A DNA stretch of 64,000 nt, from positions 11,223,726 to 11,287,725 of the forward strand of contig OZ024876.1 in the NCBI GenBank assembly GCA_964017185.1, written 5' to 3'. Source of the DNA: Rugalucina vietnamica (lineage: Eukaryota; Mollusca; Bivalvia; Lucinida; Lucinidae). Position numbers and translations under genes: made by a program. The notes below the pieces were generated by a model. That model was not told the origin of the DNA and did no database searches. It was given only the letters and a program-made list of their open reading frames with translations. Positions 1,548 through 59,145 of the stretch are shown here, in pieces (the first letter of the stretch is position 1; each line of letters opens with the position of its first letter).

Positions 1548-1649
1548 TCGAGTTGTATTGAGGCCTCCTCATCCACAGGGACCCTGCACACGTCGTGTAA
1601 AACTTCCACACATACTGAGATTATGTTTCCAAAGTTCTCTTTCACAACC
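1548..1649 (-). CDS. IPO11: Importin-11 exon (VVKENFGNIISVCVEVLHDV), last exon found
   Basis: A 102-nt exon with acceptor tcaatttcag|G and donor CTCGA|gtaaga. It encodes VVKENFGNIISVCVEVLHDV followed by CRVPVDEEASIQL, aligning with vertebrate VIQDKFCGIINISVEGLHDV. One base at the start and two at the end belong to split codons. The remaining acidic and C-terminal part of importin-11 was not found in 1-1547 and presumably lies to the left of the window. The exon is flanked by two oppositely oriented copies of the palindromic element family. Confidence 0.92.
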
Positions 1650-1697
1650 CTGAAATTGACAATATCGGTAAACATCGGCAAACAAAACCTTTAAACA

Positions 1698-1979
1698 CAT
1701 TACGAAAACATGCCCATGCAATATATAGGATTTTTTGAATCTGTAAATATTGAAAATTTTCAGAAGAAATTTTTTGAATTTTTTTCTTATTTTTGCTCAA
1801 AACATAGATTGTGGGTACATGTTAGAACCGCCTCAAAGAGGCGGTTCTAACGAGTACCCCACAATCTATGTTTTGCAGCAAAAATAAGAAAAACAGGTAT
1901 ACCCGTGCATACCCCAGTTTTACTATATAATAGTGAAGTATAAGGGGGTATACATTTCATGGGCATGTTTTCCTGATGA
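1698..1979 (-). mobile_element. Palindromic TIR family C, copy 2 (inverted relative to copy 1)
   Basis: A full-length copy with an intact central hairpin gaaccgcctcaaagaggcgg (about 1828-1848). It begins about 47 nt upstream of the acceptor of exon 1649-1548. Confidence 0.85.
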
Positions 1980-2049
1980 TCCTTCAAAATAATTGTTGTT
2001 TTTTTTTACCTTTTTTAAGAAAGCCAACAATACTGTGATCATCCTTAAT

Positions 2050-3209
2050 CAGAGGACCAATGGTTCTGTAGACTCTCATCTGAGATCTGGGATATATGCC
2101 AAAAAACTTGTTTGACAATCATATACATTACATGTCTATATAGCTCCAGGGTTCTGATACTTCCTATAAAATTTGGCTTTGACTGGCCAAGCGGTTTCAG
2201 AGAAGATCTTTGCATACTATGGTAATATACATGTATATTGCCCTAGGGCAGACCAACCCCTGGGGTCCAAATTTTTTTGAGAATCATAAATCATCAGTCC
2301 ATTTGCCCATTTCCTGCAAGTTTTTTTCCATTCCTATGACATTTTAATCATTTTCCTGTGACGCTGAAAACAAATATCTGCAAATATCTAATAGAGGCAT
2401 TAAAGTTAAGGTCTGAATTATTATTGATGCACAGAATATAAGAAGTATGTATTACATGTATATTATCCATATATTGGGAATTAGAATAGGTATGCCTTTA
2501 GTTAAGCAATGGTATCACATGTTTGAGTTACGTCGTTATGCAGCCTGTTTTTTGCAGTTCATCTAGTGAGATTCGGAGCTGGTAACGTTGATCATTTTGG
2601 TGCTACACCTTTTTCTGACACAGCTTTTGGCTAAGTGATCTCACCAGGGTAAAATATGGTAAATGTTATACGAGGCTTCCTGACGTCGGAACTCATGCAT
2701 GCATTATTCTTGATATAATGTCGCACTACTGTATATTACCAAATATTATTTGTATTGTATGATTTGTATTTTGGGCCGGTGGCCTTTATTACAATAAAGT
2801 TACTTTAACAATTTTCTCCCATTCAAATACATAGGCAACCTATGTTGACCTTGCTGTAAAATAAATCACGGTCATCACAGGGTTATGATTTATAAACACA
2901 TTGTTTTTAGTACTCTAGTCCCCAATGCTACATGCCAAGTTTTGTAAAATTGGTCCAGCAGTTCCAGAGAAAAAGAATTTTTAAGGTCTTTTTAATCATA
3001 TATGAACATGGTGACCATCTTGGTCATATTTATAAACACATTGGTTTCCTCTAACTATAGATGCTTCATATAAAATTTGGCTTTGATTGGCCAAGGGGTT
3101 TCAGGGAAGATCTAGAAAATGGTAGACAACTTACGAGAGGACAGACACCTGGTGCCTGGCTGGATATCCTATAAGCTCACCTCTGAGCCTTCGGCTCAGG
3201 TGAGCTAAA
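2050..3209 (+). mobile_element. Composite element family B, copy 1
   Basis: Family B starts near cagaggaccattggtcct and gctcacctga and ends tcaggtgagctaaaa, so the termini hold gctcacctga in inverted orientation. Between them are diverged internal units with phrases such as ggtcaaggtcatc, ggttctggagaagaagattt and gccatcttggtcatgtgacc. Short open frames inside are not conserved in frame. This copy is an old one with about two internal units. Confidence 0.8.
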
Positions 3210-3845
3210 GATATATGAATTGATGATAGGGCACTTTATGAATGATAATAGGGTACTTTATGCATACTTTTTTCACCACTCACTAACACATGCTCTTTTT
3301 GAAGAGATGCAGTGGAAGAATGAACCTGATCAAATCTTCATGAGAGAACATGCTGGAAAAAGTAAAAGTAGGCAATGATCAGTAAATGGCGCAATTAGAA
3401 AGAAATTACCACTCCAAAAACTGAGGTAGGAAAAGAACTAAACACTAAGGTACTTATACTGAGAAACCATATTGTAAGCCGAGTGAGCAGCTATTTCCCA
3501 ATAGGCGGCCACTCAGTTACCCAAACTGTGAAAATATGAAAATACACATAAGGTGCAAACAGCACAAAAATTCAACAACAAAACATAAAACAATTAGCGT
3601 CACTACAGAAGTATCGCCTTGGAACGATAAAAAAAAATTACTGGGGGGTGGGACTAAACTAGTTTTACAGGCACCTAACCTCACCCTCAGTTTCTGCAGT
3701 GGTTCACAACATTTAGTTGGTTGTTCGGTCCACGTGGTGAATCTCTATCTAGTCAATGAATCATCATGGAAAACAGATAAATTATGATAACTACTAAGAT
3801 GAATTAAAACTGAAGACTCACAGATTATCATGGAGCATAGAGATG
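3210..3845. other. Intronic sequence, nothing recognised
   Basis: Part of the IPO11 intron between exons at 5585 and 1649. A frame of 83 codons at 3536 has no splice context or family resemblance and is not called. Confidence 0.5.
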
Positions 3846-5330
3846 TGAATCAATCATGAGTCCACTTTGCCCAGACATGCCACCAAGTTATCGTGGATCA
3901 ATCGTGGGCCCACTTCACACAGACATGCCACCGATCTATCATGAATCAATCATGGGTCCTATTTGCTGACGCTCAGACACGCCACCAATCTATCATGGAT
4001 AAATCGTGGGTCCACTTCGCTCAGACATGCAGCCAAGCTATCGTGGATCAATCATGGGTCCACTTTGCTCAGACATGCAGCCAATGTATCGTGGATCAAT
4101 CATGGGTCCACTTCGCTCAGACATGCAGCCAAGCTATCGTGGATCAATCATGGGTCCACTTCGCTCAGACATGCAGCCAATGTATCGTGGATCAATCGTG
4201 GGTCCACTTCCCTCAGACATGCAGCCAATCTATCGTGGATCAATTGTGTGTCCACTTTGCTCAGACATGCAGCCAATGTATCGTGGATCAATCGTGGGTC
4301 CACTTCACTCAGACATGCAGCCAATCTATCGTGGATCAATAGTGGGTCCACTTCGCTCAGACATGCAGCCAATGTATCGTGGATCAATCGTGGGTCCACT
4401 TCGCTCAGACATGCAGCCAAGCTATCGTGGATCAATCATGGATCCACTTCGCTCAGACATGCAGCCAATGTATCATGGATCAATCGTGGGTCCACTTCCC
4501 TCAGACATGCAGCCAATCTATCAGGGATCAATTGTGTGTCCACTTCGCTCAGACATGCAGCCAATGTATCGTGGATCAATCGTGGGTCCACTTCACCCAG
4601 ACATGCAGCCAATCTATCGTGGATCAATCGTGGGTCCACTTCGCTCAGACATGCAGCCAATCTATCGTGGGTCAATTGTGGGTCCACTTCGCTCAGACAT
4701 GCAGCCAATCTATCGTGGATCAATTGTGTCCATTTCGCTCAGACATGCAGCCAATGTATCGTGGATCAATCGTGGGTCCACTTCACTCAGACAAGCAGCC
4801 AATCTATCATGGATCAATCGTGGGTCCACTTCGCTCAGACATGCAGCCAATCTATCTCGGATCAATCGTGGGTCCACTTTGCTCAGACATGCAGCCAATC
4901 TATTGTGGGTCCACTTCGCTCAGACATGCAGCCAATCTATTGTGGATCTATCGTGGATCAATCATGGGTCTACTTTATTCAGACATGCCCCCAAGCTATC
5001 ATGGATCAATCATGGGCCCACTTCGCTCAGACATGCCTCCAAGCTATCATGGATCAATCATGGGTCCACTTCACTCAGACATGCCGCCAAGCTATCGTGG
5101 ATCAATCATGGGTCAACTTCAGTCAGACATGCCGCCAAGCTATCGTGGATCAATCATGGGTCCACATTGCTCAGACATCCTGACAAGCTATCTTGAATCA
5201 ATCATGGGTCCACTTTGCTCAGGTATGCCACCAAACTAACATCGATCAATAGTGGGTCCACTTTGCTCTTACATGCCGCCAAGCTATCGTGGATCAATCA
5301 CGGGCCCACTTCGCTCAGACATGCTGCCTC
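3846..5330. repeat. 48-bp minisatellite, about 30 units
   Basis: The unit reads atcgtggatcaatcgtgggt then ccacttcgctcagacatgca and gccaatct. It lies in an IPO11 intron. Since 48 is divisible by three and the unit lacks stops in several frames, long open frames appear on both strands (about 400 codons on plus, up to 95 on minus) without being genes. Variants alternate (aagct/aatgt/aatct after cagcc), hinting at a multi-unit higher-order period. Confidence 0.95.
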
Positions 5331-5584
5331 GTAAAACTTTGTACTGCTATATATGTAAAACATTAACCAAAACAAACATGAAAACAAACATTAACATTTA
5401 AAAGTAAGTACAAAGGGAGTGATGAACATATCTAAGCCGAGCCACGCGCGCTTTTGCACCTGTTCAGGAAAGATGTGGTATGAAGTAGCTGGGACATCAT
5501 TTGTAAACTTAAATAACAGTAAAAAATTTTGTCTTAACATTTCTAATGCTAGAAACAGGACAAATTATTGTAATGGTAACTCAC

Positions 5585-5706
5585 TTCATATTAACAGGTA
5601 GCAGACTAGCTAATGCTAAGGCTGATAGTTTCCGACGTTCTGGTTGTGTCATACAATCTATACTGTCGAACCATGCTGTGAAAACAGACTGTACCATTGT
5701 GTTCAG
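5585..5706 (-). CDS. IPO11: Importin-11 exon (LNTMVQSVFTAWFDSIDCMT)
   Basis: A 122-nt exon, starting in phase 0 and ending with two bases of a split codon: acceptor tttgtttcag|CTG, donor ATGAA|gtgagt. It contains CMTQPERRKLSALALASLLP against vertebrate NITQPERRKLSALALLSLLP, an almost unbroken match. The split AA plus G of the next exon gives Lys. The intron beyond the donor holds the 48-bp minisatellite at 3.85-5.33 kb. Confidence 0.95.
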
Positions 5707-5816
5707 CTGAAACAAAAACATCAACAAAACCATTAAAGGCATGAAATTTCAGCCACTCATAAATACTGAAATAGTCAAAAGGATCTGAAACTTCAGGTTT
5801 AGATACTAAAGCCTGT

Positions 5817-5888
5817 AATTTATCCTGCTAATAAATGTTAAAATGCCAACGGTTGTTGGCATTTTAACATTTTATTAGCAGGATAAAT
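5817..5888. repeat. Hairpin repeat (aggataaatt family)
   Basis: Inverted arms tttatcctgctaataaatgt / acattttattagcaggataaa around ttggcattttaac motifs. Related hairpins occur at about 19284-19357 and 25471-25540. Nearby 5889-6068 shows only the associated gctcagctgagctgagc piece. Confidence 0.7.
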
Positions 5889-6068
5889 CTTAGTCTCAGC
5901 TGAGCTGAGCATGAAATGTTTTATAACCTCGGGGCCTGGTCAAGAGGCTCGTTATTCAAACCCCACTGGCACTGATTTGTACCCTTGTGCAAGACAAAGT
6001 GACAAATATTATTTATTTCTAAAACTTTATTTAATTATTACCATATTTGTTTTATTTAGCAAACAGAC

Positions 6069-6415
6069 TACCGTATTCGTTCTAATTAGCACACAGTGCG
6101 CTTAACATTTCAAAATAACTCAAAGTTAAGTTAACAAAATACCGTTCTAATAAGCGCACACTAGGAACGAAACCACACGTAAAGTGTTGATATTACAATG
6201 TCAAAATTACCAATGATGATGTCATTTAAGTGTTTCGAACCTGGCGAAATACCGTTTGATCAGCTAAGATAAAGTTTTAATGCAGTATAAAAGTGTAAAA
6301 TTGCTGAAAATATCATTATCTTCGTCGAGCAGTGTGCACTTATACACATTGTTTTCGGATCCGACAGGGTGTGCGCTTATTGGAGCATGTGGGCTAATTA
6401 GAACGAATATGGTAT
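6069..6415. mobile_element. TIR element, ends taccgtattcgttctaatta
   Basis: A 347-bp MITE. The left end taccgtattcgttctaatta and the right end taattagaacgaatatggta are inverted. Partial relatives lie at about 6820-6935, 34550-34660 and 39525-39610. Confidence 0.75.
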
Positions 6416-6571
6416 TTAAGTTTTCAAAGTTGCCTCCATAAAATATTGTTTGAATAAGGCCACATTAAAGCCACAGAGAACGCATTAAATTACTGGTCCA
6501 AAACTTCAAGTAATAGTGATGCATTCATTATATTCAACCTTTGCAAAATACTGAAGTGTTATAGTTCACCT

Positions 6572-6803
6572 ATTAACTCATATAAGCCTTGCATCCTTTT
6601 TATGGGGCATAGGCAAACAAAATAGCCCCAGATGTGATGCCGCAGAACGCGGCGTCCCATCTGGGGCTATTCTGTTTGCTAAGAGGAATTTCATCGAAAA
6701 ATGGAATGAAAATTAAAAATCACTCCTGATGCCCCTATAAATGACAGTGGACACACAGAAATGATAACAATGGGAAAGTCCATTCGTTATATATGGGTTA
6801 AGA
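6572..6803. mobile_element. MITE family J, copy 1
   Basis: Ends ttaactcatataagcc / atatgggttaa. A strong internal hairpin pairs ccccagatgtgatgccgc with gcggcgtcccatctgggg. Confidence 0.75.
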
Positions 6804-7206
6804 TGTGTGAAAATTTGTGTACAATACCAATATGCCAGGGAGCCAGTGTGTGCTTATACACAGATTGTTGGGAAAAAGGCTTGCATATGCGCTAATTGAA
6901 GCATGTGCACTAATTAGAACAAATACAGAAATTCCTCTTCTTGTTAAAATCAAATTTCAGCCTTCTAGCCTTTTATTGTGACTATACAGCCTGATTTGTG
7001 TCAGACCTGGTCGGAGCCCAAATTGTTGATTTCTCACGCGAAGGCGCAAATAAGAAATATCAAGCCTCTTGTGGCCTTCTACAATTCTGTATAGACTTCT
7101 GGCTGAAAAGGGTCCTGCTTCCCCTTTTCCCCCACCCCCACAGGAAATTTTGCATAGTCTTTCTTAAAGAGCAGTCTTTTCTGAAAATTCCCCCAACTTG
7201 CTAAAT

Positions 7207-7442
7207 GAGCCACCGCATGGGAAAACCAACAATCTGCATAGGCGAAAACAAAGGCGCAGATCAGCTTCGCGCTAACCGCGAAGCTGATCAGCGCCTTTGT
7301 TTTCGCTACTCGGACAGTACAATTCCTCCTCTACTTAACTCCAAAATTTCAAGCCTCTAACCATCTTCTGTGACTGTACAGGCAGGTTTGTGTCGGACCC
7401 TGTTCGAAAACCACATTGTTGGTTTTTCCACGAGGAGGCTCA
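7207..7442 (+). mobile_element. MITE family A (240 bp), reference copy
   Basis: Family A: tgagccgcatcatgagaaaa, then ccaacaatctgcataggcg, a central palindrome gatcagcttcgcagttactg / cgaagctgatc, gatagtacaattcctcttct, tttcaagcttctagcctgct, cggacctggtcggaaacc and an inverted end ttggttttctcatgcggctca. No coding capacity. It is the most abundant repeat here (more than 30 copies or fragments). This copy ends 16 nt from the donor of the IPO11 exon at 7459. Confidence 0.9.
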
Positions 7443-7458
7443 AATGTTGTACACTTAC

Positions 7459-7572
7459 ATCTGTGTGCATCTCTGAGGCTACTTGATCCATGAAGCCCCA
7501 GAAGAACTCCTGGTTTTGTAACACTATCCTACCAAACAAGGTCAGGTAAAGGGACATTACTACTGGGTGCTC
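7459..7572 (-). CDS. IPO11: Importin-11 exon (EHPVVMSLYLTLFGRIVLQN)
   Basis: This 114-nt exon (38 codons, phase 0/0) has acceptor atttgcag|GAG and donor GAT|gtaagt. EHPVVMSLYLTLFGRIVLQN is close to vertebrate IPO11 RYPVVMSTYLAVMGRVLLQN, followed by FFWGFMDQVASEM against FFSSLLNEMAHKF. Copies of the 240-bp MITE lie on both sides in opposite orientation (7207-7442 and 7638-7870), the nearer one 16 nt beyond the donor. This is one of the most conserved exons and anchors the identification. Confidence 0.95.
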
Positions 7573-7637
7573 CTGCAAATGATGATAAAAGGTGCGCATG
7601 TAAGACAAGGATACAAATTTCTAACACAAAGACAAAT

Positions 7638-7870
7638 GAGCCTTCACGTGGGAAAACCAACAATTTGGGTTCCGACCAGGTCTGACACAAACTGGGCTGT
7701 ACAGTCACAGAAGATGGTTAGAGGCTGGAAATTTTGGATTTAGAAAGTAGAGGAATTGTACTATCTGTGTGGAAAACAAAGGCACTGATCAGCTTCACAT
7801 TTACTGCGAAGCTGATCTGCACCTTTGTTTTCACCTATGCAGATTGTTGGTTTTCCCATGCAGAGGCTCA
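7638..7870 (-). mobile_element. MITE family A, reversed copy
   Basis: Opposite in orientation to the copy at 7207, so the two bracket the 114-nt IPO11 exon as an inverted pair. Confidence 0.88.
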
Positions 7871-8396
7871 AATCTGATACAGATTAACCTCATTATAACA
7901 CTACCATTGTGGTTCATAGAGACAGGCCATTTTATAAGAGAAACTGTGTTGCATCAGGGACAGTAGATTTACAGGGATATGAAACTTCAGTACTGCTATT
8001 ATCATGTTCCAATTTATGCCTGACTTGGAGTCAGGCCAGGTTTTAGAATATGCCCAATAGGTATTTACATGGAGAATAAGTAAGAAAATATGTGTTTATA
8101 GTGGTCAGTTTCTACGAACTACTCCTTCTTCTATATTGCATTTTTATTCAAGCAAAACATGTCATCTGTTTAAGCACATATTGGACTGTTGTTTGATGTC
8201 AAGTTTGAATGTATACACCAAAAATTACACCTAAGCTATCTGTATAAAAAATGAAGAAAAAAGTGTTTTCTTCCAGAAGAAGTTTTTTACCTCTTTTTTA
8301 ACAGCCTTTTTATATAAAAGTATTCACTCAATATATTTGAATTTTACATAAAACAACACTGGGGCAGTTCATCTTTCGAATGGTATATTATACAAT
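7871..8396. other. Intronic sequence, nothing recognised
   Basis: AT-rich, without repeats I can name or splice-bounded coding. Confidence 0.5.
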
Positions 8397-9392
8397 TATT
8401 GACTATTGAGTCATTGAATATGATGTGTTATTATATAACTATAAATAGACAGTATTTCAGACAATGCTTTCAGTCCATTGCATATTTTGTCATATTCTAT
8501 AACCTGGGGTTTTTCCCATTGAATATTTGTTACTAAATTTAGAACTCCCTCTGTCATTGGAAAAGTACACTGATTGCTGTCAAGCAGTAATGCCAATGAA
8601 GTACAAATGATGTTTATTTGAATTTAGACTTTAATAATGTCCCAATAAACATTTTTCAGTCATGCTGGGACTATAAGTAAACTAAATGTATACACTAATT
8701 CATTTACAGATAAAAAATAGTTATTTTAAAATTATTTTTATCATGTTTGTATAAAAAGAGTGTTATATAATAAAACAATTGTTGACTATTGAGTCATCGA
8801 ATATGATGTGATATCCAACAGAGACTACCAATATTGACCTCGGCTTCGCCTCGGTCAATATTGGTAGTCTCTGTTGGATATCACATCATATTCGATGACT
8901 CAATAGTCAATAATTGTATAATATCCAACAGTGACTACCAATATTGACCGAGGCGAAGCCGAGGTCAATATTGGTAGTCTCTGTTGGATATCACATCATA
9001 TTCAATGACTCAATAGTCAACAATTGTTTTATTATATAACACTTTTTTTATACAAATATGATAAAAATAATGTTAAAATAACTACATGTATTTTAATCTG
9101 TAAATAAATAGTGTATACATATAGTTTACATATGGTCCCAGCATGACTGAAAAATGTTCATTGGGACATTAAGTCTAAATTCAAATAAACTAAACAGTAA
9201 TAAACACCATTTGTACTTCATCCGCATTACTGCTTGACAGCGATCAGTGTACATTTCCAATGACAGTGAGAGTTCTAAATTTAGTAACATATATTCAATT
9301 GGAAAAACCCCAGGTCATAGAATATGACAAAATATGCAATGGGCTGAAAGCATTGTCTGAAATACTGTCTATTTATAGTTATATAATAATTC
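8397..9392. repeat. Giant palindrome, about 1 kb, with hairpin cores
   Basis: Arms of roughly 450 bp (8397-8890 versus 8940-9392) are inverted copies with several percent divergence. The centre holds two near-perfect hairpins centred at about 8850 and 8958 (gacctcggcttcgcctcggtc and its complement), each flanked by atccaacag.gactaccaat and actattgagtcat. Both arms retain an open stretch containing KPQVIEYDKICNGLKALSEI. Confidence 0.85.
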
Positions 9393-9982
9393 TTTTTAAG
9401 TTATGTTCAGTATGCTTGTAGGAGTATTTTGTAAAACACAGGCAGTGTTTGGAATATTTTGCCTTATTTAATTGCATAGTCAATTATTGGAATACCTGTC
9501 CAGCCCAGTCCAGTTGGCAAGACAGTCATATTCTATTAAATAGGGCTAGACTCCAATCACTTGTATTATAGATCACTGGTTACATGGTATAGTCTTAAAG
9601 CAAAAACAAACAACAAAAAAACAGCATGATTGTGTTTACCTATCTCACTGAAATGCAATCCTACCTGCAGTCTCATTAAATGAATATTTATGCCACAATT
9701 TCACGAGTTTACGCATATTTGTCTCAGAACAGATGATTGATAATCACGAGACTCACATACAACAGTCATGAGAGTGTCTCACGATGTTGCACAAATATCG
9801 CTAAAATTCAGTTTCTCTCATACAAAAAAAAATAGTCATGAGACATTCATGAGAGTGTCACATAACATTTGCAAAACTGTCGCTTAGTTTTATTTTTTCA
9901 CCAAATAGTCGAGACCTAATCAACAGTACTTGGTATTTTTGTCTATAGACTTTAGTGAGAGTGTTGCAAAATTAACACATTT
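9393..9982. other. Intronic sequence without recognised genes
   Basis: Between about 9690 and 9880 the phrase gtcatgagagtgtc recurs a few times in diverged form. Otherwise nothing identifiable. Confidence 0.4.
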
Positions 9983-10207
9983 AAGCCTGTGAATAATTTG
10001 GGTTTTCAACCAGGTCCGACACAAACCGGCTGTAGAATCTCACGAGCAGGCTAGAACCTAGAAATTTCAGATTTAAGAACAAGAGGTACATGTATTACAC
10101 TATGGAGCGAAAGCAAAGGCGCTGATCAGCCGTGCATTTACTGCACGGCTGATCTGCGGCTTTGTTTTCGCATAAGCAAACTGTTGGTTTTCTTACGCAG
10201 CGGCTCA
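9983..10207 (-). mobile_element. MITE family A copy
   Basis: The central palindrome is the gccgtgca/tgcacggc variant rather than the gcttcgca variant. Confidence 0.82.
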
Positions 10208-10427
10208 TTTATTCTTCGCCAAAATTTCATGGGGACAGAATTATGTGGGATTCGCCACAGGTTCGAGACAAGGTTTGCCACTGGTTCACGATGACTATGC
10301 AACAGGTTTGCAAAATATTTTGTCACATTTGGCATAAATTTTCAGCCATGTTTCAACTTAAATTTTCTTTTACAAATTGTTGGCAACCAGTTCATGCGGT
10401 GATCATGCCAAATCTTCCATATCCAGT

Positions 10428-10517
10428 GCTTTCTAGCCATCTTCAGTGCTTGCACAGCTCTGTTTGTGTCGCACCATTTCAAAAACCATATTGTTGGTTT
10501 GCTCATGACATGGCTCA
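10428..10517 (+). mobile_element. MITE family A, right-end fragment
   Basis: Only the right third remains. Its TIR is complementary to the left TIR of the next copy, across the IPO11 exon 10560-10655. Confidence 0.75.
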
Positions 10518-10559
10518 ATTATGTACATCAAAATGTTCATACTGGTAACATTCACTTAC

Positions 10560-10655
10560 ATCTTTACTCAGCATAGTTTGTAGAAATGCTGGTAGCTTTA
10601 TTCTAAATACCTCTGGACCTTCTGTCGGGAATGATTTAAACACCAGCTCTATTAT
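10560..10655 (-). CDS. IPO11: Importin-11 exon (IIELVFKSFPTEGPEVFRIK)
   Basis: A 96-nt, 32-codon exon, phase 0/0, with acceptor tctgcttcag|ATA and donor GAT|gtaagt. IIELVFKSFPTEGPEVF continues the helical repeat and matches the vertebrate stretch VVENALKVNPILGPQMF in position and pattern. It joins in frame to EHPVVMSLYL of the next exon, equivalent to vertebrate ERYPVVMSTYL. MITE termini of about 32 bp, complementary to each other, lie on both sides (ending 10517, starting 10679). Confidence 0.92.
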
Positions 10656-10678
10656 CTGAAGCAGAAACAACACTATAT

Positions 10679-11166
10679 GAGCCGCATCATGAGAAAACCA
10701 ACATGTTGCATAAGCCATAACAATGGCGCAGATGAGCTTCGCAGTAACTTGATCAGCACCTTTGTTTTCCATTACGAAAACATGCCCATATGATATACAG
10801 TAATTTTTTCAGGTCAAAAATCGATACTTTTCAGAGGAAAATTTTTGATATTTTTCTTATTTTTGCTCAAAACATAGATTGTGGGTACACGTTAGAACCG
10901 CCTCGCCGAGGTACCCACAATCTATGTTTTGGAGCATAAATAAGAAAAATAGGTATATTCCTGCATACCCCAGTTTTACTATATAAAAGTGGGGTTTAAG
11001 GGGGTATTCATTGCACGGACATGTTTTCCTGATGGCTACATGGGTGTAAGTACAATTCCTCTACTTTCTAAATCTGAAATTTCCAGCCTCTAGCCATCTT
11101 CTGTACTTGTGCAGCTCAGTTTGTGTCAGACCTGTTCAGAAACCACATTGTTGGTTTTCTCATGAT
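10679..11166 (+). mobile_element. MITE family A copy interrupted by a family C element
   Basis: The left part (10679-10770) and right part (about 11048-11166) belong to one MITE. A family C element sits between them. Confidence 0.8.
10771..11034 (-). mobile_element. Palindromic TIR family C, inserted in a MITE A
   Basis: Runs cattacgaaaacatgccc ... acatgttttcctgatg with the central hairpin collapsed. It is younger than the surrounding MITE. Confidence 0.82.
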
Positions 11167-11329
11167 GATCATATTTATTTGATTAGTCTTTAACAACCCT
11201 GTCAACAACGTTTAAGCAGCATTGGGATGGCATCAACTACTCGTGGTGCAATTCTATCCAAAAACAAAATTTTTAGCATGTCAATGCAGCTCAGTTTGTG
11301 TCTGGTCTAGTTAGTAACTGCACTGCTGA

Positions 11330-11475
11330 TCGGCACCTTTGTTTTCGCTACACAAATAGTACAATCCCTCTTCTTCTTAAATACAAAATTTCAAGATTCT
11401 AGCCTTTTTCTGGGGACTGTACAAGTCGGACCTGGTCGGAAATCCCTAAGACCAGTTTTCTTGCCTCACAGCTCA
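11330..11475 (+). mobile_element. MITE family A, right part
   Basis: Starts near the central ctgcactgctgatcggc and runs to cacagctcat; the left third is missing. Confidence 0.7.
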
Positions 11476-11586
11476 TACTGATGGGTTTTTTTAGAGATAA
11501 GGTTCAATACTCATAACACCAGTTTTCCAGAGACAACCAATGCAACCAATGCAACTTGGAACAACCAATACAGATGAAAACAATAT

Positions 11587-11811
11587 GAGTCGCATTGTGG
11601 GAAAACCAGATTTTTGCCTATGCGAAAACAAAGGCGCAGATCAGCTTCGTAGCTGATCATTGCCTTTGTTTTCACTACACGGATAGTACAATTTCTCTTC
11701 TTCTTCAATAGGAAATTTCAAGCTTCTAGCCTGCTTCTGTGACTGTACAGGTCGGTTTGTGTCAGACCTGGTTGGAAACCCCAAAGACCGGTTTTCTCAC
11801 ATCACGGCTCA
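11587..11811 (+). mobile_element. MITE family A copy
   Basis: Left end tgagtcgcattgtgggaaaa, right end atcacggctca; the central palindrome is shortened. Confidence 0.85.
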
Positions 11812-12025
11812 TAAGGCCGTAAGATTATACTTACCTGGGAACAACTTACCATGGATCAGAGTGAGCCTTAGTAAGTTGTTCGCAGACAGGTACTTTCTCC
11901 TATTTTCTGTTATTGATTTCATCTGCATTGGTTGTTCTTAACCGAATCCGTTGTCTTTGGATGGCCAGTGTGATGATCTGCCTGACAGCTGATGATGGGT
12001 TCCGACCAATATTCAAACAATAACT

Positions 12026-12242
12026 GAAACTTCCTATGAGAAAACCAACAATTTGGGTTTCCGACCAGGTCTGACATAAACCAGCTTGTAGAGTCACAGA
12101 AGAAGGCTGGAAGCTTTAAATTTTGGATTTAAGAAAAAGAGAGACAGTACTATCCTTGTGGCAAAAACAAAGACGCTAATCAGCAGCTGAACTGCCCCTC
12201 TGTTTTTGCATAATGCAGATTGTTGGTTTTCCGATGCGGCGG
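12026..12242 (-). mobile_element. MITE family A copy
   Basis: Reversed copy about 47 nt from the donor of IPO11 exon 12290-12370; left TIR degraded. Confidence 0.8.
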
Positions 12243-12289
12243 ATATATTTATCATATTAAATGGAGTAAACAATCCAAATGGAACTTAC

Positions 12290-12370
12290 TCTTAAAATAA
12301 GAAGCACTCCTTCTGTTCTGATATCTGTCATCAATGACGTTAATGATGTGACCAGTTCGGAGGCATAACG
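12290..12370 (-). CDS. IPO11: Importin-11 exon (RYASELVTSLTSLMTDIRTE)
   Basis: This 81-nt exon encodes 27 residues, phase 0/0, with acceptor atatttcag|CGT and donor AGA|gtaagt. The peptide RYASELVTS...DIRTEGVLLILR corresponds to vertebrate IPO11 TYAVGLCQS...EITTEGQVQVLK. No long open frame marks it; it was found from its splice sites and homology. It lies between a reversed copy of the 240-bp MITE (ending 12242) and a TIR element at 12428, leaving about 47 and 57 nt of native intron. Confidence 0.9.
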
Positions 12371-12697: not shown

Positions 12698-13100
12698 AAT
12701 GATGGGGCAATATCCTAGGTTAGTAATTATATACACATTATATGGCAGATTGAAGCCCTTTATCAATGTAATAAGTTTTCATTGGCCTTGATGGGCAAGC
12801 CATTTTTTAAACAATGGAAGGTGACTGTGCACAGCCTTGTTAAGATGTTTGATGCTGGCGAACAGGACATTACAATGAACTAATATACTATATGTCTAAG
12901 CTTTTTTGTTAGTATTTACCCATTTTATTTAATTAAATTAAAATTAGAACTAGATAAGACATAATAAATAATGACGTCCTAATGGTTTGATTGTGTACCA
13001 TGCCCATGTTAACATGGTTCTTCCTAGTGCCTGTGTTTCTGGATCATACCTCGTATATAAGCTGCATCATGAGAAAACTGGATGTTTGCCTATGTGAAAA

Positions 13101-36944: not shown

Positions 36945-37315
36945 GACTGATATTAATCTATGGAAAATTAATGACTTAAAAATATTGAAAATAGATGTGA
37001 CATAAAAATATGAAAATATGGAAAATAGATGTGACGTAAAAATATTAAAAATAGATGTGACTTAAAAATATTGAAAATAGATGAAAATAGATGTGACTTG
37101 AAAATATGGAATTAATGACATAAAAATATTGAAAATTGATGAGACTTAAAAATATTGAAAATTGATGTGACTTAAAAATATTGAAAATAAATGTGACTTG
37201 AAAATATGGAATCAATGACATAAAAATATTGAAAATAGATGTGACTTAAAAATTGATGTGACTTAAAAATATTGAACACTTGTGTGACTTCAAAATATGG
37301 AAACCTGACATGACT
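36945..37315 (+). repeat. 26-bp degenerate tandem repeat abutting the nested gene start
   Basis: The consensus is roughly gatgtgacttaaaaatattg followed by aaaata, about 13 imperfect units with deletions. It ends about 25 nt before the ATG of the nested gene, so it occupies the place of the 5' UTR or core promoter. I see no TATA-box arrangement that stands out from the AT-rich background. Confidence 0.8.
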
Positions 37316-37338
37316 TAAGATTTAAAGATCTTCTCAAA

Positions 37339-38586
37339 ATGGCCACAGTGCTCATCATTTTTCTGTGGCAACTAACTGTTCCATTTATACAATCAAGTGA
37401 AGTTTCAGCAACTAGAGATGCTCTGCTGTCAGAATTGTTGCTGCTCCAACAAGACTATTGTGGAGAAGTGATTCTGTGTAATGATTCCAGACATGTAGAA
37501 CCCGATTACAGCGAGTTGATTCTGCCCTGTTGTGTGCCTTGCTCTTGTTTACCTTCATGCCAGGCATTAGACATCTGCTGTCCAAATTTCAACAATGCTT
37601 TGCTCAATGCCAGTGAAAGCAGAATCAAAAGCGGAATTCGAACTACATATCATTTCAATACTTATGAAGAACTGTTACACGAAGATAACAGCACAGACAG
37701 AATAAATGAGGTTCCCATAGAAAGGAACATCACCAAAGAAGGTGCTGATACTATGAAGGAAAGACTTGCATGTATAAGGCCACAAGTTCAACGACTACAA
37801 GAGACGTATCTTGATTCTCCAGCGTATCTAATGATAGGTGACTGCCCAGCCGAGCAGTCTGATACAGATCTAGATGAACAATGTAAGATAGGCTTTGATA
37901 ATGTCGGTCTCAAGAACATGTTGCCTGTGACATCTGCTGCAAGCAACATGACTTATGTGAATATACACTGTTTGAAGTGCAATGAAAACACAACCACTGA
38001 GATTCAGATAAGGTACTGGATGCCTCTGATAACAATTCAAAGTCGGCTATTTAATAACTACCAGTTCTTTACAAATCCTGATGATATTGTATCTTACCTA
38101 CTGAAACATAAGTTTTTCAATGGAATGAAAACAGGAAACATTCATTTTCTGCCCCCTAATCCCCAGCTTTTGCATCAATGTCAGCTCTATGATGTCATTT
38201 CCTGTAACAAGACAGGGCTCTGGGATATATACAACAAGACGACAGAACAAGTTTGCCTGTCAGGACACAGCCTGCCAGTGATCAGGCCCATTGAAGGTAA
38301 AAAGCTACTCTTCAGAAATGTTGCATGTCTTTACTGCAACCAACCAGATGACGTGTACGGAAAGTTAGCGATACTGAAACAGTCCATCTGTTCATCAGGA
38401 CCTGATACTATCTCTGGACCAGTTCCAAGGTTCAATATTACAATCTATGTTCCTGACCTGAACCCCAAAACGCTAGAACAGGAAGATAAAACCACTCCTC
38501 TCAGCAGCGAATACATAGACGCCACAACAGCACTGACACTGATAAAACAGACCAAAACATGTCCTGTTGGTGATATAGCCATTCTG
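37339..38586 (+). CDS. Nested gene, exon 1: secreted/anchored Cys-rich glycoprotein with SMB-like motif
   Basis: This exon encodes residues 1-416. Residues 1-20 (MATVLIIFLWQLTVPFIQSS) form a signal peptide, which supports this ATG. Residues 41-81 hold nine cysteines; CSCLPSCQALDICCPNF has the C-x-C-x3-C-x5-CC spacing of the second half of a somatomedin-B domain. Many N-glycosylation sequons follow (NDS, NAS, NST, NIT, NMT, NTT, NKT). The donor is CTG|gtaagt, phase 0. The layout resembles ectodomains of molluscan Methuselah-like or adhesion-type receptors, which is family memory, not a proven match. The gene lies antisense in the 40-kb IPO11 intron. In human, LRRC70 also lies in the IPO11 locus, but this protein has no leucine-rich repeats. 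Confidence 0.82.
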
Positions 38587-38607
38587 GTAAGTAGGTGTAG
38601 TAATATT

Positions 38608-38835
38608 TGAGCTCAGCAACACGAGAAAACATTCTTTGAGATTTCCGACCACGACAGACACAAACTGGCCTTTACAACCGCAGAAGCAAGCTAGAATCTT
38701 GAAATTTTCGGTGTACGTAGAGGAGGAATTTGTACTATCAAAGTAGTGAAAACAAAGGCGCTGATCAGCTTCGCAGTTACTGCAAAGCTGACCTGTGCCT
38801 TTGTTTTCGCTTAGGTTTTCTCAAGACAAGGCTCA
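38608..38835 (-). mobile_element. MITE family A copy in the nested gene intron
   Basis: Reversed, starting 21 nt after the splice donor of exon 1. Confidence 0.85.
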
Positions 38836-39847: not shown

Positions 39848-39878
39848 TATAATATAGTATACTTTTTCTTGTTTACAG

Positions 39879-40862
39879 GGAACCTGTAGAAGAATCCTTT
39901 GTCCCCGGGGACATTATGATCAAGATGGCTACTGTGTACCACTGTACGACACTCTCTCAGGCATCAATCTTCATGTCAAGTTGGAGATCACCCCTAGTCA
40001 AAGTATTGCCCCTGCAGATAGACTGGACTTCGCCAAGATATTGACATCCATGGTGAATTCAACTCTAAATGAGACAACCAGTCTACAACACCATTCTTTG
40101 TCAGTCTGGTATCTACCACGGTCAGACGCAAACCCAGAAGAGTTCTATTTGCTAAGCATCTACATGTCAGGTCGTGGCGGCATTAGTACCTTTGACCAGT
40201 CAATAAAAGAAATCAAGGACTTTTACATTGCCATGAAAAGTAAGTCAAAACTTATGCATAAGACTGGGTCTGAGGTAAAACTTCAAATTAAATTTGGCAA
40301 CCGTGTGGACTTTATAGGAGACAAACCTATATGTTACATACTAGGCGGTGTTTCACTCACACACTTGTATACCTCTGGCAGCACTATACATGAGGCAGAG
40401 CCAGGGATGATCATATCCGAGGCCAACTGGTGTTACAGAACAGTTATAACCCGACGTGTCGACACTGAGTTTGTCACCAAAAATGTTCTAACTATCAAAG
40501 GAACCAGCATCCAACTTTACTTTGACCAGTTTGAAAGAAATAAGTTGGACTATTATGTCTGCTTGGAGTTACTTCATGAGGGTACTGAAAAACTGACAAC
40601 AGAACTAAAGACTGTACGCCGTACCGTCGCAAAAGGACCTGCTGGAGCTGACGACACTACAGACAACACACCCTGGTATAGCAACCAATTATTCATCATA
40701 GCCATTTGTATTGTTGCAATGGGTATACTAACTTTTATCTTTTGTAAAATCAAGGCAAAACGTTTTAACAAAGATCTGAACCGTTTCCAGGACACCGAAA
40801 ACCCAGAGGCTATGAACAAAAGGGAGAGTACTGAGCTTCATCAGGTTGAAACACCAATGTAA
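39879..40862 (+). CDS. Nested gene, exon 2: membrane-proximal ectodomain, single TM, short tail
   Basis: The acceptor is ttgtttacag|GGA, phase 0, giving 327 residues (417-743) and a TAA stop. It opens with GTCRRILCPRGHYDQDGYCV, a Cys-rich motif typical of stalks in molluscan receptor-like proteins. A hydrophobic segment LFIIAICIVAMGILTFIFC (about 684-705) is the only transmembrane helix, followed by a basic stop-transfer KIKAKRF and a tail of about 38 residues. A seven-helix domain, expected if this were an adhesion GPCR, is absent. No AATAAA is visible just after the stop before the next MITE at 40938. Alternatives: a decoy or single-pass receptor, or a GPCR gene truncated by a premature terminal exon. 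Confidence 0.82.
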   Translation, partial: GTCRRILCPRGHYDQDGYCVPLYDTLSGINLHVKLEITPSQSIAPADRLDFAKILTSMVNSTLNETTSLQHHSLSVWYLPRSDANPEEFYLLSIYMSGRGGISTFDQSIKEIKDFYIAMKSKSKLMHKTGSEVKLQIKFGNRVDFIGDKPICYILGGVSLTHLYTSGSTIHEAEPGMIISEANWCYRTVITRRVDTEFVTKNVLTIKGTSIQLYFDQFERNKLDYYVCLELLHEGTEKLTTELKTVRRTVAKGPAGADDTTDNTPWYSNQLFIIAICIVAMGILTFIFCKIKAKRFNKDLNRFQDTENPEAMNKRESTELHQVETPM

Positions 40863-40937: not shown

Positions 40938-41173
40938 TGAGCCGTGACGTGAGATAACTGGTCTTTGGGGTTTCCAACCAGGTCTGACACAAACCAATCT
41001 GTACACTCACAGAAACTAGCAACTAGAAACTTGTCTAGAAACTTGAAATTTCGAATTTAAAAAGTAGAGGAACAGTACTACCAATGTGGCAAAAACAAAG
41101 GTGCTGATCAGCTGTGCATTAATGCCTTTGTTTTCATATAGGCAAAACTCCTGTTTTCTCATGTTGCGGCTCA
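40938..41173 (-). mobile_element. MITE family A copy
   Basis: Begins about 75 nt after the stop of the nested gene, so the 3' UTR or polyadenylation site probably involves this copy. Confidence 0.85.
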
Positions 41174-41255
41174 AATCTGCTTGAAATTCCTGTTGATGCT
41201 AACTTCATATACATGTACATTTTTTCTTGTGATACAGCTAATTTTAAGTTCCAAA

Positions 41256-52413: not shown

Positions 52414-52493
52414 CTCCATAAATTCTCTGGGTCCCAATAAAATATAGGCATCTATCACTTTTAAACACAGGCGTAGATTCTCGGTGCCCAATT
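52414..52493 (-). CDS. IPO11: Importin-11 exon (LGTENLRLCLKVIDAYILLGPREFME)
   Basis: An 80-nt exon with acceptor ttgtttcag|AA and donor GAG|gtatgt. Its first two bases complete GAA (Glu) with the G left by the preceding exon, giving LLE-LGTENLRLCLKVIDAYI against vertebrate LLE-LSSENLRTCFKIINGYI. It is the last exon before the 40-kb intron that hosts the plus-strand gene. Only about 10 nt of non-repeat intron separate the donor from a palindromic 280-bp element, and about 17 nt separate the acceptor from a 1.07-kb composite element, so splicing signals other than the core sites must lie in transposon DNA or in the exon. Confidence 0.93.
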
Positions 52494-56110: not shown

Positions 56111-58628
56111 CTAGCAACTCGGGCATGTTTTTATAAAGATCTAGGAGTTCAGGTGTAGCACAGGGGGCGTTCAGCAATGTAACATGCCACAACTCTAGAC
56201 CATCCTCAACAAGATACACATGCTGTGGTTGTGTCACATCTGTAGAGGACTGTATCACAGGCAAGAGGAAATCATACATTGCAGTACTGGTTGGACCAAA
56301 ACCCTGCAAGAGGAAATCATACATTGCAGTACTGGTTGGACCAAATCCCTGCAAGAGGAAATCATACATTGCAGTCCTGGTTGGACCAAAACCCTGCAAG
56401 AGGAACTCATACATTGCATTACTGGTAGGACAAAAACCCTGCAAGAGGAAATCATACATTGCAGTACTGGTAGGACCAAAACCCTGCAAGAGGAAATCAT
56501 ACATTGCAGTACTGGTAGGACCAAAACCCTGCAAGAGAAAATCATACATTGCAGTACTGGTTGGACCAAAACCCTGCAAGAGGAAATCATACATTGCAGT
56601 ACTGGTAGGACCAAAACCCTGCAAGAGGAAATCATACATTGCAGTACTGGTAGGACCAAAACCCTGTAAGAGGAAATCATACATTGCAGTACTGGTTGGA
56701 CCAAAACACTGCAAGAGGAAATCATACATTACAGTACTGGTTGGACCAAAACCCTGCAAGAGGAAATCATACATTGCAGTACTGGTTGGACCAAAACCCT
56801 GCAAGAGGAAATCATACATTGCAGTACTGGTAGGACCAAAACCCTGCAAGAGGGAATCATACATTGCAGTACTGGTTGGACAAAAACCCTGCCAGAGCAA
56901 ATCATACATTGCAGTACTGGAAGGACCAAAACCCTGCAAAGGACCAACACCCTGCAAGAGGAAATCATACATTGCAGTACTGATTGGACCAAAACCCTGC
57001 AAGAGGAACTCATACATTGCAGTACTGGTTGGACCAAAACCCTGCAAAAGGAAATCATACATTGCAGTACTGGTTGGACCAAAACCCTGCAAGAGGAAAT
57101 CATACATTGCAGTACTGGCTGGACAAACACACTGCAAGAGGAAATCATACATTCCAGTACTGGTTGGACCAAAACCCTGCAAGAGGAAATCATACATTGC
57201 TGTACTGGTATGGCCAAAACCCTGCAAAAGGAAATCATACATTGCAGTACTGGTTGGACGAACACCCTGCAAGAGGAAATCATGCATTAAACTGCTGGTA
57301 GGACAAAAACACTGTAAGAGGAAATCATACATTGCAGTACTGGTTGGACCAAAACCCTGCAAGAGGAAATCATACATTGCAATACTGGTAGGACCAAAAC
57401 CCTGCAAGAGGAAATCATACATTGCAGTACTGGTTGGACCAAAACCCTGCAACAGGAAATCATACACTGCAATACTGGTAGGACCAAAACCCTGCAAGAG
57501 GAAATCATACATTGCAGTACTGGTTGGACCAAAACCCTGCAAGAGGAAATCATACATTGCAGTACTGTTAGGACCGAAACCCTGCAAGAGGAAATCATAC
57601 ATTGCAGTACTGGTAGAACCAAAACCCTGGAAGAGGAAATCATACATTGCAGTACTGGTAGGACCAAAACCCTGTAAGAGGTAATCATACATTGCAGTAC
57701 TGGTTGGACCAAAACCCTGCAAGAGGAAATCATACATTGCAGTACAGGTAGGACCAAAACCCTGTAAGAGGAAATCATACATTGCAATACTGGTAGGACC
57801 AAAACCCTGCAAGAGAAAATCATACATTGCAGTACTGGTAGGACCAAATCCCTGCAAGAGGAAATCATACATTGCAGTACCGGTAGGATCAAAACTTGCA
57901 AGAGGAAATCATACATTGCAGTACTGGTTGGACCAAACCCTGCAAGAGGAAATCATACATTGAAGTACTGGTAGGACCAAAACCCTGCAAGAGGAAATCA
58001 TACATTGCGGTACTGGTAGGACCAAAACCCTGCAAGAGGAAATCATACATTGCAGTACTGGTTGGACCAAAACCCTGCAAGAGGAAATCATACATTGCAG
58101 TACTGGTTGGACCAAAACCCTGCAAGAGGAAATCATACATTGCAGTACTGGTTGGACCAAAACGCTGCAAGAGAAAATCATACATTGCAGTACTGGTAGG
58201 AGCAAACCCTGCAAGTGGAAATCATACATTGCAGTACTGGTTGGACCAAAACCCTGCACAAAATCATACATTGCAGTACTGGTAGGACCAAAACCCTGCA
58301 AGAGGAAATCATACATTGCAGTACTGGTAGAACCAAAACCCTGCAAGAGGAAATCATACATTGCAGTACTGGTTGGACCAAAACCCTGTAAGAGGTAATC
58401 ATACATTGCAGTACTGGTTGGACCAAAACCCTGCAAGAGGAAATCATACATTGCAGTACTGGTTGGACCAAAACCCTGCAAGAGAAAGTCATACATTGCA
58501 GTACTGGTAGGACCAAAACCCTGCAAAGGACCAACACCCTGCAAGAGGAAATCATACAATGCAGTACTGATTGGACCAAAACCCTGCAAGAGGAAATCAT
58601 ACATTGCAATACTAGTAGGACCAAAACC
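56111..58628 (-). CDS. IPO11: Importin-11 exon whose 5' part is a 45-bp minisatellite with reiterated splice acceptors
   Basis: The unique part (56303-56111) encodes 64 residues starting GFGPTSTAMYDFLLPVIQSS and containing HVYLVEDGLELWHVTLLNAP, co-linear with vertebrate GLGADSKNLYPFLLPVIQLS and HVYLLEDGLELWLVTLENSP. The donor is CTAG|gtaaga (phase 1). Upstream of 56303 the first 45 bases of the exon, including the acceptor, are repeated about 52 times; the outermost acceptor is tttcctcatgcag|GG at 58628. The frame MYDFLLQGFGPTSTA is open from about 57872 to 56111, so acceptors in roughly the last 35 units keep the IPO11 frame. Units further upstream are separated from it by units that are not 45 bp long and shift the frame. 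Which acceptor the cell uses cannot be read from DNA. The minimal exon is 56111-56303. Confidence 0.9.
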
Positions 58629-58640
58629 CTGCATGAGGAA
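56258..58640 (-). repeat. 45-bp minisatellite, about 52 units, derived from the IPO11 exon start plus acceptor
   Basis: Each minus-strand unit runs from GGTTTTGGTCC through GCAATGTATGATTTCCTCTTG to CAG. It encodes QGFGPTSTAMYDFLL, the beginning of the IPO11 exon, and ends in a pyrimidine-rich tract plus CAG that acts as a 3' splice site in the outermost and presumably the ancestral copy. Units differ mainly at a GTT/GTA position (Asn/Thr codon change) and scattered substitutions. A few units are longer or shorter than 45 bp. Two rare composite units (around 56931-56960 and 58516-58545) and other shared variants show that multi-unit blocks have been copied. Confidence 0.95.
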
Positions 58641-58749
58641 ATTTCAGATAGGCAAAAGTCTCGTTTCTCATGACGCAGCTGAAATTGCCCATGGGCATTT
58701 CATAAAAGTTGATTATCATATTGCAAGCATGGACGATCAACAACAAATG

Positions 58750-58964
58750 TTCCGCGTCATGAGAAAACCAACATTTTGCATAGGCAAAAACAAAGGCGCA
58801 GTTACTGCGAAGGTGATCAGCTTTTTTGTTACACACATAGTACAATTCCTCTACTTTCTAAATTCAGAATTTCTAGACTCTAGCCATTTTCTATGCCTGT
58901 GCAGCTCGGTTTGTGTCGGACATGTTTGGAAACCACACTGTTGGCTTTCTCATGACATGGCTCA
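58750..58964 (+). mobile_element. MITE family A copy in the 352-nt IPO11 intron
   Basis: Ends 16 nt from the donor of exon 58981-59145. A second MITE A terminal fragment (about 58643-58682) lies some 12 nt from the outermost repeat-unit acceptor. Confidence 0.83.
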
Positions 58965-58980
58965 AACCCTCTGTACCAAC

Positions 58981-59145
58981 CTGTACTAGATGAATCAGTG
59001 TGGTTAAAATGGCACATCGTAGCATGTTGTGTTCCGCCGACTCTTGCCAAAGGCTGGGGAGGTAGGATATAAGAGAGGAAGCAAAAGGTCGGATCTGAGC
59101 TCCAACACGTTCTATCACAAATGATATCACATGCAATATTTGCAT
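58981..59145 (-). CDS. IPO11: Importin-11 exon (MQILHVISFVIERV ... LIHLVQ)
   Basis: A 165-nt exon (55 codons, phase 0/0) with acceptor ttattttcag|ATG and a weak donor CAG|gttggt. It contains VISFVIERV, QIRPF and EHNMLRCAILTTLIHLVQ, close to vertebrate IPO11 VLSCVIERV and EHNMLRCAILTTLIHLVQ. Importin-11 is a RanGTP-regulated import receptor; known cargoes in mammals include UBE2E3, RPL12 and PTEN. The alternative donor four bases further (gttg|gtacag) would shift the frame and is rejected. A MITE starts about 16 nt inside the following intron, which is only 352 nt long and mostly MITE sequence. Confidence 0.95.

Follow-up and report, generated by a model that had tools for sequence, protein, structure and literature searches.

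Minisatellite-like tandem duplications of intron-exon boundaries, known as mirages, have been described in amphioxus, where they are unstable in length and where splicing was found to be normal by RT-PCR (passages of PMC3087553). The described cases include Adh3 and the globins BflGb6 and BflGb9, to which TnC and PGBD5 have been added (PMC3902484), and the cited parts of both papers report that mirages do not interfere with splicing. Related situations are the gain of an intron in a potato RdRp gene, where a tandem duplication across the acceptor copied the splice signals (in the cited part of PMC4974935), and the in-frame choice between neighbouring acceptors at NAGNAG and other close tandem sites (in the cited part of PMC3250501). 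Here, we describe an array of 52 units at the boundary of one importin-11 (IPO11) exon in a mollusc, and argue that it is probably a minisatellite of the mirage kind, consisting of tandem intron-exon boundary copies in one IPO11 locus, of which the acceptors proximal to the exon would be used while the rest is treated as intron.

The window, by which we mean the whole stretch of 64,000 nucleotides analysed, carries IPO11 on the minus strand as eight joined exons of 80-193 nt each. Their joined translation matches the Pfam family TPR_IPO11 (PF25758, E 4e-69), which bears out the assignment of gene and exon to importin-11 in a preliminary description of this DNA. The closest named relatives of the segment, among the matches listed, are bivalve proteins (Sinanodonta 65%, Dreissena 66%), which suggests a bivalve host, and a 208-residue protein reaches 84% over 41% of the query. 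When the genome (1.09 Gb, 47 contigs) was searched with the Sinanodonta IPO11 protein, all 19 matches (E 0.01) were found in order on contig C8, spanning residues 2-965 of 967 of the query with gaps between matches, and therefore the array lies in the only IPO11 locus found in this 1.09 Gb. A retrocopy, which would reveal the natural splice, was not among these matches, all of them belonging to one locus. The features of the locus are the following, all on the minus strand, with the basis of each in brackets.

58981..59145, minus strand: IPO11 exon upstream of the array, ending in CATCTAGTACAG followed by the phase 0 donor gttggt (joined-exon model, Pfam family)
58738..58966, minus strand: interspersed repeat, MITE-like by eye, forming much of the intron (tens of window matches, many places in the genome)
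58642..58685, minus strand: fragment with window matches at 13060-13099 and 41132-41176, adjoining the 14-nt partial unit (sequence matches)
58629..58642, minus strand: 14-nt partial unit atttcctcatgcag, with the tract and AG of acceptor 1 (unit alignment)
57852..58628, minus strand: units 1-17, whose acceptors lead to a stop (unit starts, frame test)
56304..57851, minus strand: units 18-51, whose acceptors are in frame, with a predicted gain of 1-34 units, approximately GFGPTSTAMYDFLLQ each (unit starts, frame test)
56111..56303, minus strand: IPO11 exon proper, beginning with unit 52, continuing CCTGTGATACAG and ending in TAG before the donor gtaaga (joined exons, homologue alignment)
52414..52493, minus strand: next IPO11 exon (joined-exon model)
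1548..12370, minus strand: five further IPO11 exons at 12370-12290, 10655-10560, 7572-7459, 5706-5585 and 1649-1548, included in the yardstick for splice-site scores (joined-exon model)

The 52 unit starts run from 58628 down to 56303, and the lengths of units 1-51 are 45 bp (45 units), 44 bp (three), 63 bp (two) and 42 bp (one); Tandem Repeats Finder scores of 1212 and 2646 were obtained on the array, which is thus no chance pattern. The roughly 52-fold amplification of the preliminary description is thus real, while the bounds given there, 56111..58640, have to be redrawn: the exon ends at 56111, and the array, counted from its partial first unit onwards, extends from 58642 to about 56261. 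Unit 52 is the first 43 bases of the IPO11 exon itself, after which CCTGTGATACAG continues up to the donor at 56111. That the last unit is the start of the exon and joins it in frame, as described earlier, is upheld by 119 of the 120 listed homologues, which align gap-free across the junction, the remaining one (P0036) being without the segment. The 63-bp variant occurs at units 2 and 37, which points to past exchanges, and each of the two carries an extra acceptor (58538 and 56951), making 54 acceptors in total. An AG is present at all 54, displaced by 1-2 bases from the unit start at three places (58208, 57939 and 57894), and frame-breaking 1-bp deletions lie at the unit joints 9/10, 15/16 and 16/17. 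As cut for comparison, 40 of the 52 unit sequences are distinct, and no run of at least three identical consecutive units at a fixed offset was found in the array. A genome-wide satellite built of this unit is unsupported: the exact gapped unit pattern had 51 matches, of which 29 are in this array and 22 have spacers that are unrelated by eye.

The sequence separating the upstream exon from the partial first unit is 338 bases long (58980-58643). The interspersed repeat in this intron is about 220 bp long, with 6246 first-look candidates genome-wide, 40 of them scored, and the fragment at 58642..58685 probably belongs to the same repeat family.

On the two features tested, the array appears to belong to the mirage kind: it is a tandem minisatellite-like repeat, and its unit comes from and adjoins an intron-exon boundary of the same gene with the splice signal copied. 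The intronic share of the 45-bp unit is small, consisting of the AG and a tract that also occurs in the exon. Like the amphioxus cases, the IPO11 arrays (a second one is described below) consist of tandem boundary copies with duplicated splice signals, on the acceptor as well as the donor side (cited parts of PMC3087553 and PMC3902484). They differ in scale, with haplotypes of 3 and 6 units at BflGb6 and 52 units and 55 donor-like sites here, and in that normal splicing was judged by RT-PCR in amphioxus (PMC3087553, cited part) and is a prediction for IPO11. Additionally, the host is a mollusc, and extra copies of the 45-bp unit could be translated, since it keeps the frame and resembles exon sequence almost throughout. 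The duplication spans an acceptor, likewise as in the potato RdRp gene (PMC4974935, in part). In contrast to that intron gain, no new intron is evident in IPO11, and the unit was rejected as a mini-intron, its best donor-like GT scoring 3.7 against 5.7-9.0 for eight real IPO11 donors. Older models of intron gain by tandem duplication are reportedly those of Rogers, of Zhuo, and of Gao and Lynch. The repeats of Epstein-Barr virus EBNA-LP also carry splice signals and give variable numbers of protein repeats, but there each repeat holds whole translated exons, and the origin is unrelated. In-frame choice between neighbouring acceptors, as at NAGNAG sites, is possible in IPO11 too, with two sites 3 nt apart in the former and 54 sites mostly 45 nt apart in the latter (PMC3250501, in part). 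Among the papers listed by our literature searches there was no IPO11 array and no mollusc mirage; new here are the mollusc host, the copy number, a second array on the donor side in IPO11 and two arrays in a CCT gene.

The data support the conclusion that the IPO11 exon requires an acceptor within the array, because each of the 19 AGs in the intron outside it leads to a stop. The best of these scores 5.9, and as the weakest real IPO11 acceptor scores 4.3, score alone would leave it possible; the stop excludes it. Within the array, the acceptors are strong when scored with an approximate matrix: their median is 10.7 against 4.3-9.5 for seven other IPO11 acceptors, and by the same approximate measure 0.3% of 3621 minus-strand AGs exceed that median. 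All but one of the listed array scores round to at least 7.3, the lowest being 3.4. The dozens of sites proposed earlier as equal are thus nearly so in tract and AG, but not in branch sites, as a yUnAy match is absent at -60 to -10 in 46 of the 54, including 56303, which has only a weaker TATGAT at -14. All seven other IPO11 acceptors have at least one yUnAy within 60 nt. Acceptor 1 has a branch-like site at -16, and the array holds none better.

Reading frames divide the array in two. From unit acceptors 18-52 (35 of the 52) the frame stays open and continues correctly into the exon, with 0-34 extra units, while acceptors 1-17 all run into a stop; both the approximately 35 in-frame units and the failure of acceptors beyond about 57.9 kb in the preliminary description are thereby confirmed. 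With the extra acceptors, 56951 giving an open frame and 58538 a stop, the totals over 54 are 36 in frame and 18 with a stop.

As to origin, the exon contains ATTTCCTCTTGC, nearly identical to the tract atttcctcatgcag at acceptor 1. An in-frame 45-bp unit ending in an acceptor could have arisen from these two by slippage or unequal exchange, and would then have been multiplied into the array. We propose this origin with reserve, because a repeat fragment adjoins the array and the comparison covered this one assembly. In splicing, the spliceosome would match an acceptor to the donor at 56111 over the length of a short exon. The acceptors closest to the exon core would then be used, above all 56303 (exon of 193 nt), with the remaining array excised as part of the intron, and a small fraction of the protein may gain 15 or 30 residues through occasional use of the next acceptors. 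Exon definition favours acceptor 52 and its neighbours, and the window exons of 80-193 nt fit exon definition with acceptor 52 better than they would exons of 1.7-2.5 kb. Further, acceptors 1-17 would truncate the protein. What speaks against the use of exon-proximal acceptors is the lack of a yUnAy match at most array acceptors, 56303 among them. Moreover, if the branch point were upstream of the array, scanning for the first AG (passages of PMC1431707) would select acceptor 1 and truncate the product. We hold exon definition to be likelier than first-AG scanning because the IPO11 gene is intact where examined.

A variant with some chance of being right, although we would not expect it, is that splicing leaks between the last few acceptors and yields minor, functionless isoforms with 15, 30 or 45 extra residues that vary between alleles with array length. 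Acceptors 52, 51, 50 and 49 score 10.7, 10.7, 9.3 and 10.7 and would give exons of 193, 238, 283 and 328 nt, all of which suits such leakage; against it stand the amphioxus mirages, reported in the cited parts of PMC3087553 and PMC3902484 as splicing normally.

A spread-out choice of acceptors, yielding a graded series of functional IPO11 proteins with 0-34 extra 15-residue units, is improbable. It draws on the 35 in-frame unit acceptors, near-identical and strong, and on the distribution of differences between units. These differences amount to 96 substitutions of 47 types relative to the consensus, counted with the last two bases of unit 52 omitted and odd-length units aligned by hand. The AG is spared by all 47 types (P about 0.07), as is the CAG as a whole (P about 0.02), and 16 types fall in positions 24-45 (P about 0.009, for a window picked post hoc and with equal rates assumed). 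As weak hints, these patterns favour upkeep of the splice signal over upkeep of the protein, weak because the units share ancestry. Another weak hint, in this case at protein upkeep, is that units 18-52 have no frame-breaking indel, all three falling among units 9-17.

Against a functional series, the differences between units show no sign of selection on the protein: 13 of the 47 types (28%) are synonymous overall and 10 of 39 (26%) in units 17-52, where 21-27% would be expected without selection, so the protein-level constraint that a functional cassette should show was not found in the optional units. The open frame was rejected as coding evidence because the consensus unit is stop-free in five of its six frames, and the absence of stops in the units, where about 1.3 (counting types) or 2.7 (counting instances) were expected, is not telling. 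In an AlphaFold model of the Sinanodonta relative (24 sequences; mean pLDDT 88.1, pTM 0.69), the junction Q625/G626 falls within helix 610-645, where an insert would be expected to be disruptive. No insert was seen at the junction in any of the 120 listed homologues, nor was an array-bearing public protein among these 120 of 537 matches (7998 candidates scored, lengths limited). When the last array units served as query, three candidates came up, with only an ordinary relative and no array-bearing protein among them. The series would also need exons of up to 1.7 kb. The protein-diversity reading of the array is consequently weak, and the earlier proposal that acceptor choice could diversify the protein is not supported, in view of neutral substitutions, frames that are open anyway, a junction inside a modelled helix and the lack of an array-bearing protein in these searches.

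Frequent use of acceptor 1 or of other 5' acceptors, which would make stop-bearing transcripts and lower IPO11 output via transcript decay, is very unlikely in our view. First-AG scanning (PMC1431707, in the passages cited), the branch-like site at -16 of acceptor 1 in an array offering no better one, and the stops reached from acceptors 1-17 would all agree with it, yet exons of more than 1.7 kb would be required, and the Ipo11 knockout is embryo-lethal in mice (PMC7085267, cited part), so that selection against strong loss would be expected. Finally, an assembly artefact is scarcely credible, for although tandem arrays are hard to assemble and this is a single assembly, 40 of the 52 unit sequences are distinct, the array sits in a 63.7 Mb contig and three more boundary arrays with other units occur in the same assembly; the copy number, for its part, could be off.

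One of these three further arrays lies in IPO11 itself, on the donor side and outside the window (C8:11291718-11294250, minus strand). There, the exon for IPO11 residues 404-451 ends in GGATGCTG followed by gtgagtg at C8:11294250, after which a run of donor-like sites begins. This array has 55 sites including the authentic one, spaced by 47 bp (48 times) or 46 bp (six times), and 49 of the 55, again with the authentic one included, match the authentic donor score. The first, exon-proximal site alone gives an open product with the exon that follows, and the other 54 lead to a stop, the same logic as that proposed for the acceptor array and a point in favour of exon-proximal splicing there.

Arrays of period at least 9 cover 25% of the 100.7 kb studied, and therefore chance overlap of array and boundary would be common. 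A tandem array is present no more than 30 bases away from two of the 19 IPO11 exon matches, so exon boundaries are, if anything, spared, but the repeats of these two arrays are made of the boundary. A survey of the CCT family gave 57 matches, of which 30 yielded a locus and 27 did not; since three of the 30 represent the same exon in copies, 28 places remain. Boundary arrays were found at two of the 28, both in one gene, which we take from its sequence to be CCT3-like:

L059, C8:61636713-61637110: CCT3-like, 2.8 copies of a 144-bp unit that contains an entire exon and its two splice sites
L060, C8:61644564-61645927: CCT3-like, 178-bp units, 7.7 copies, a donor in each full unit seen

Small tandem repeats were additionally seen near three CCT exons (L029, L055 and L056).

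The IPO11 locus represents a natural experiment in 3' splice-site choice, in which a single exon is preceded by 54 similar acceptors one after another, and the unit variants and frame marks would tell from a read which acceptor was used. Mirages are extended from amphioxus to a mollusc, and the IPO11 and CCT arrays together suggest that array-rich genomes strike splice boundaries repeatedly and that exon definition copes. A bolder and tentative idea, to which we give a small share of belief, is that this genome repeatedly makes splice-site arrays, that the exon core guides splicing past dozens of decoys and that array length per allele tunes minor IPO11 isoforms. If true, splice-site choice would be titrated naturally at this locus.

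Within the window (1-64000), tandem arrays of period at least 9 cover 29% of the sequence in 33 merged arrays, several of them with units of 455-465 bp, and at 3845-5328 a 48-bp unit is repeated about 31 times. Additionally, long open frames on the plus strand at 37309-38610 and 39858-40862, inside the 40-kb IPO11 intron, represent a probable other gene, and the second of these frames ends in a membrane-like stretch.
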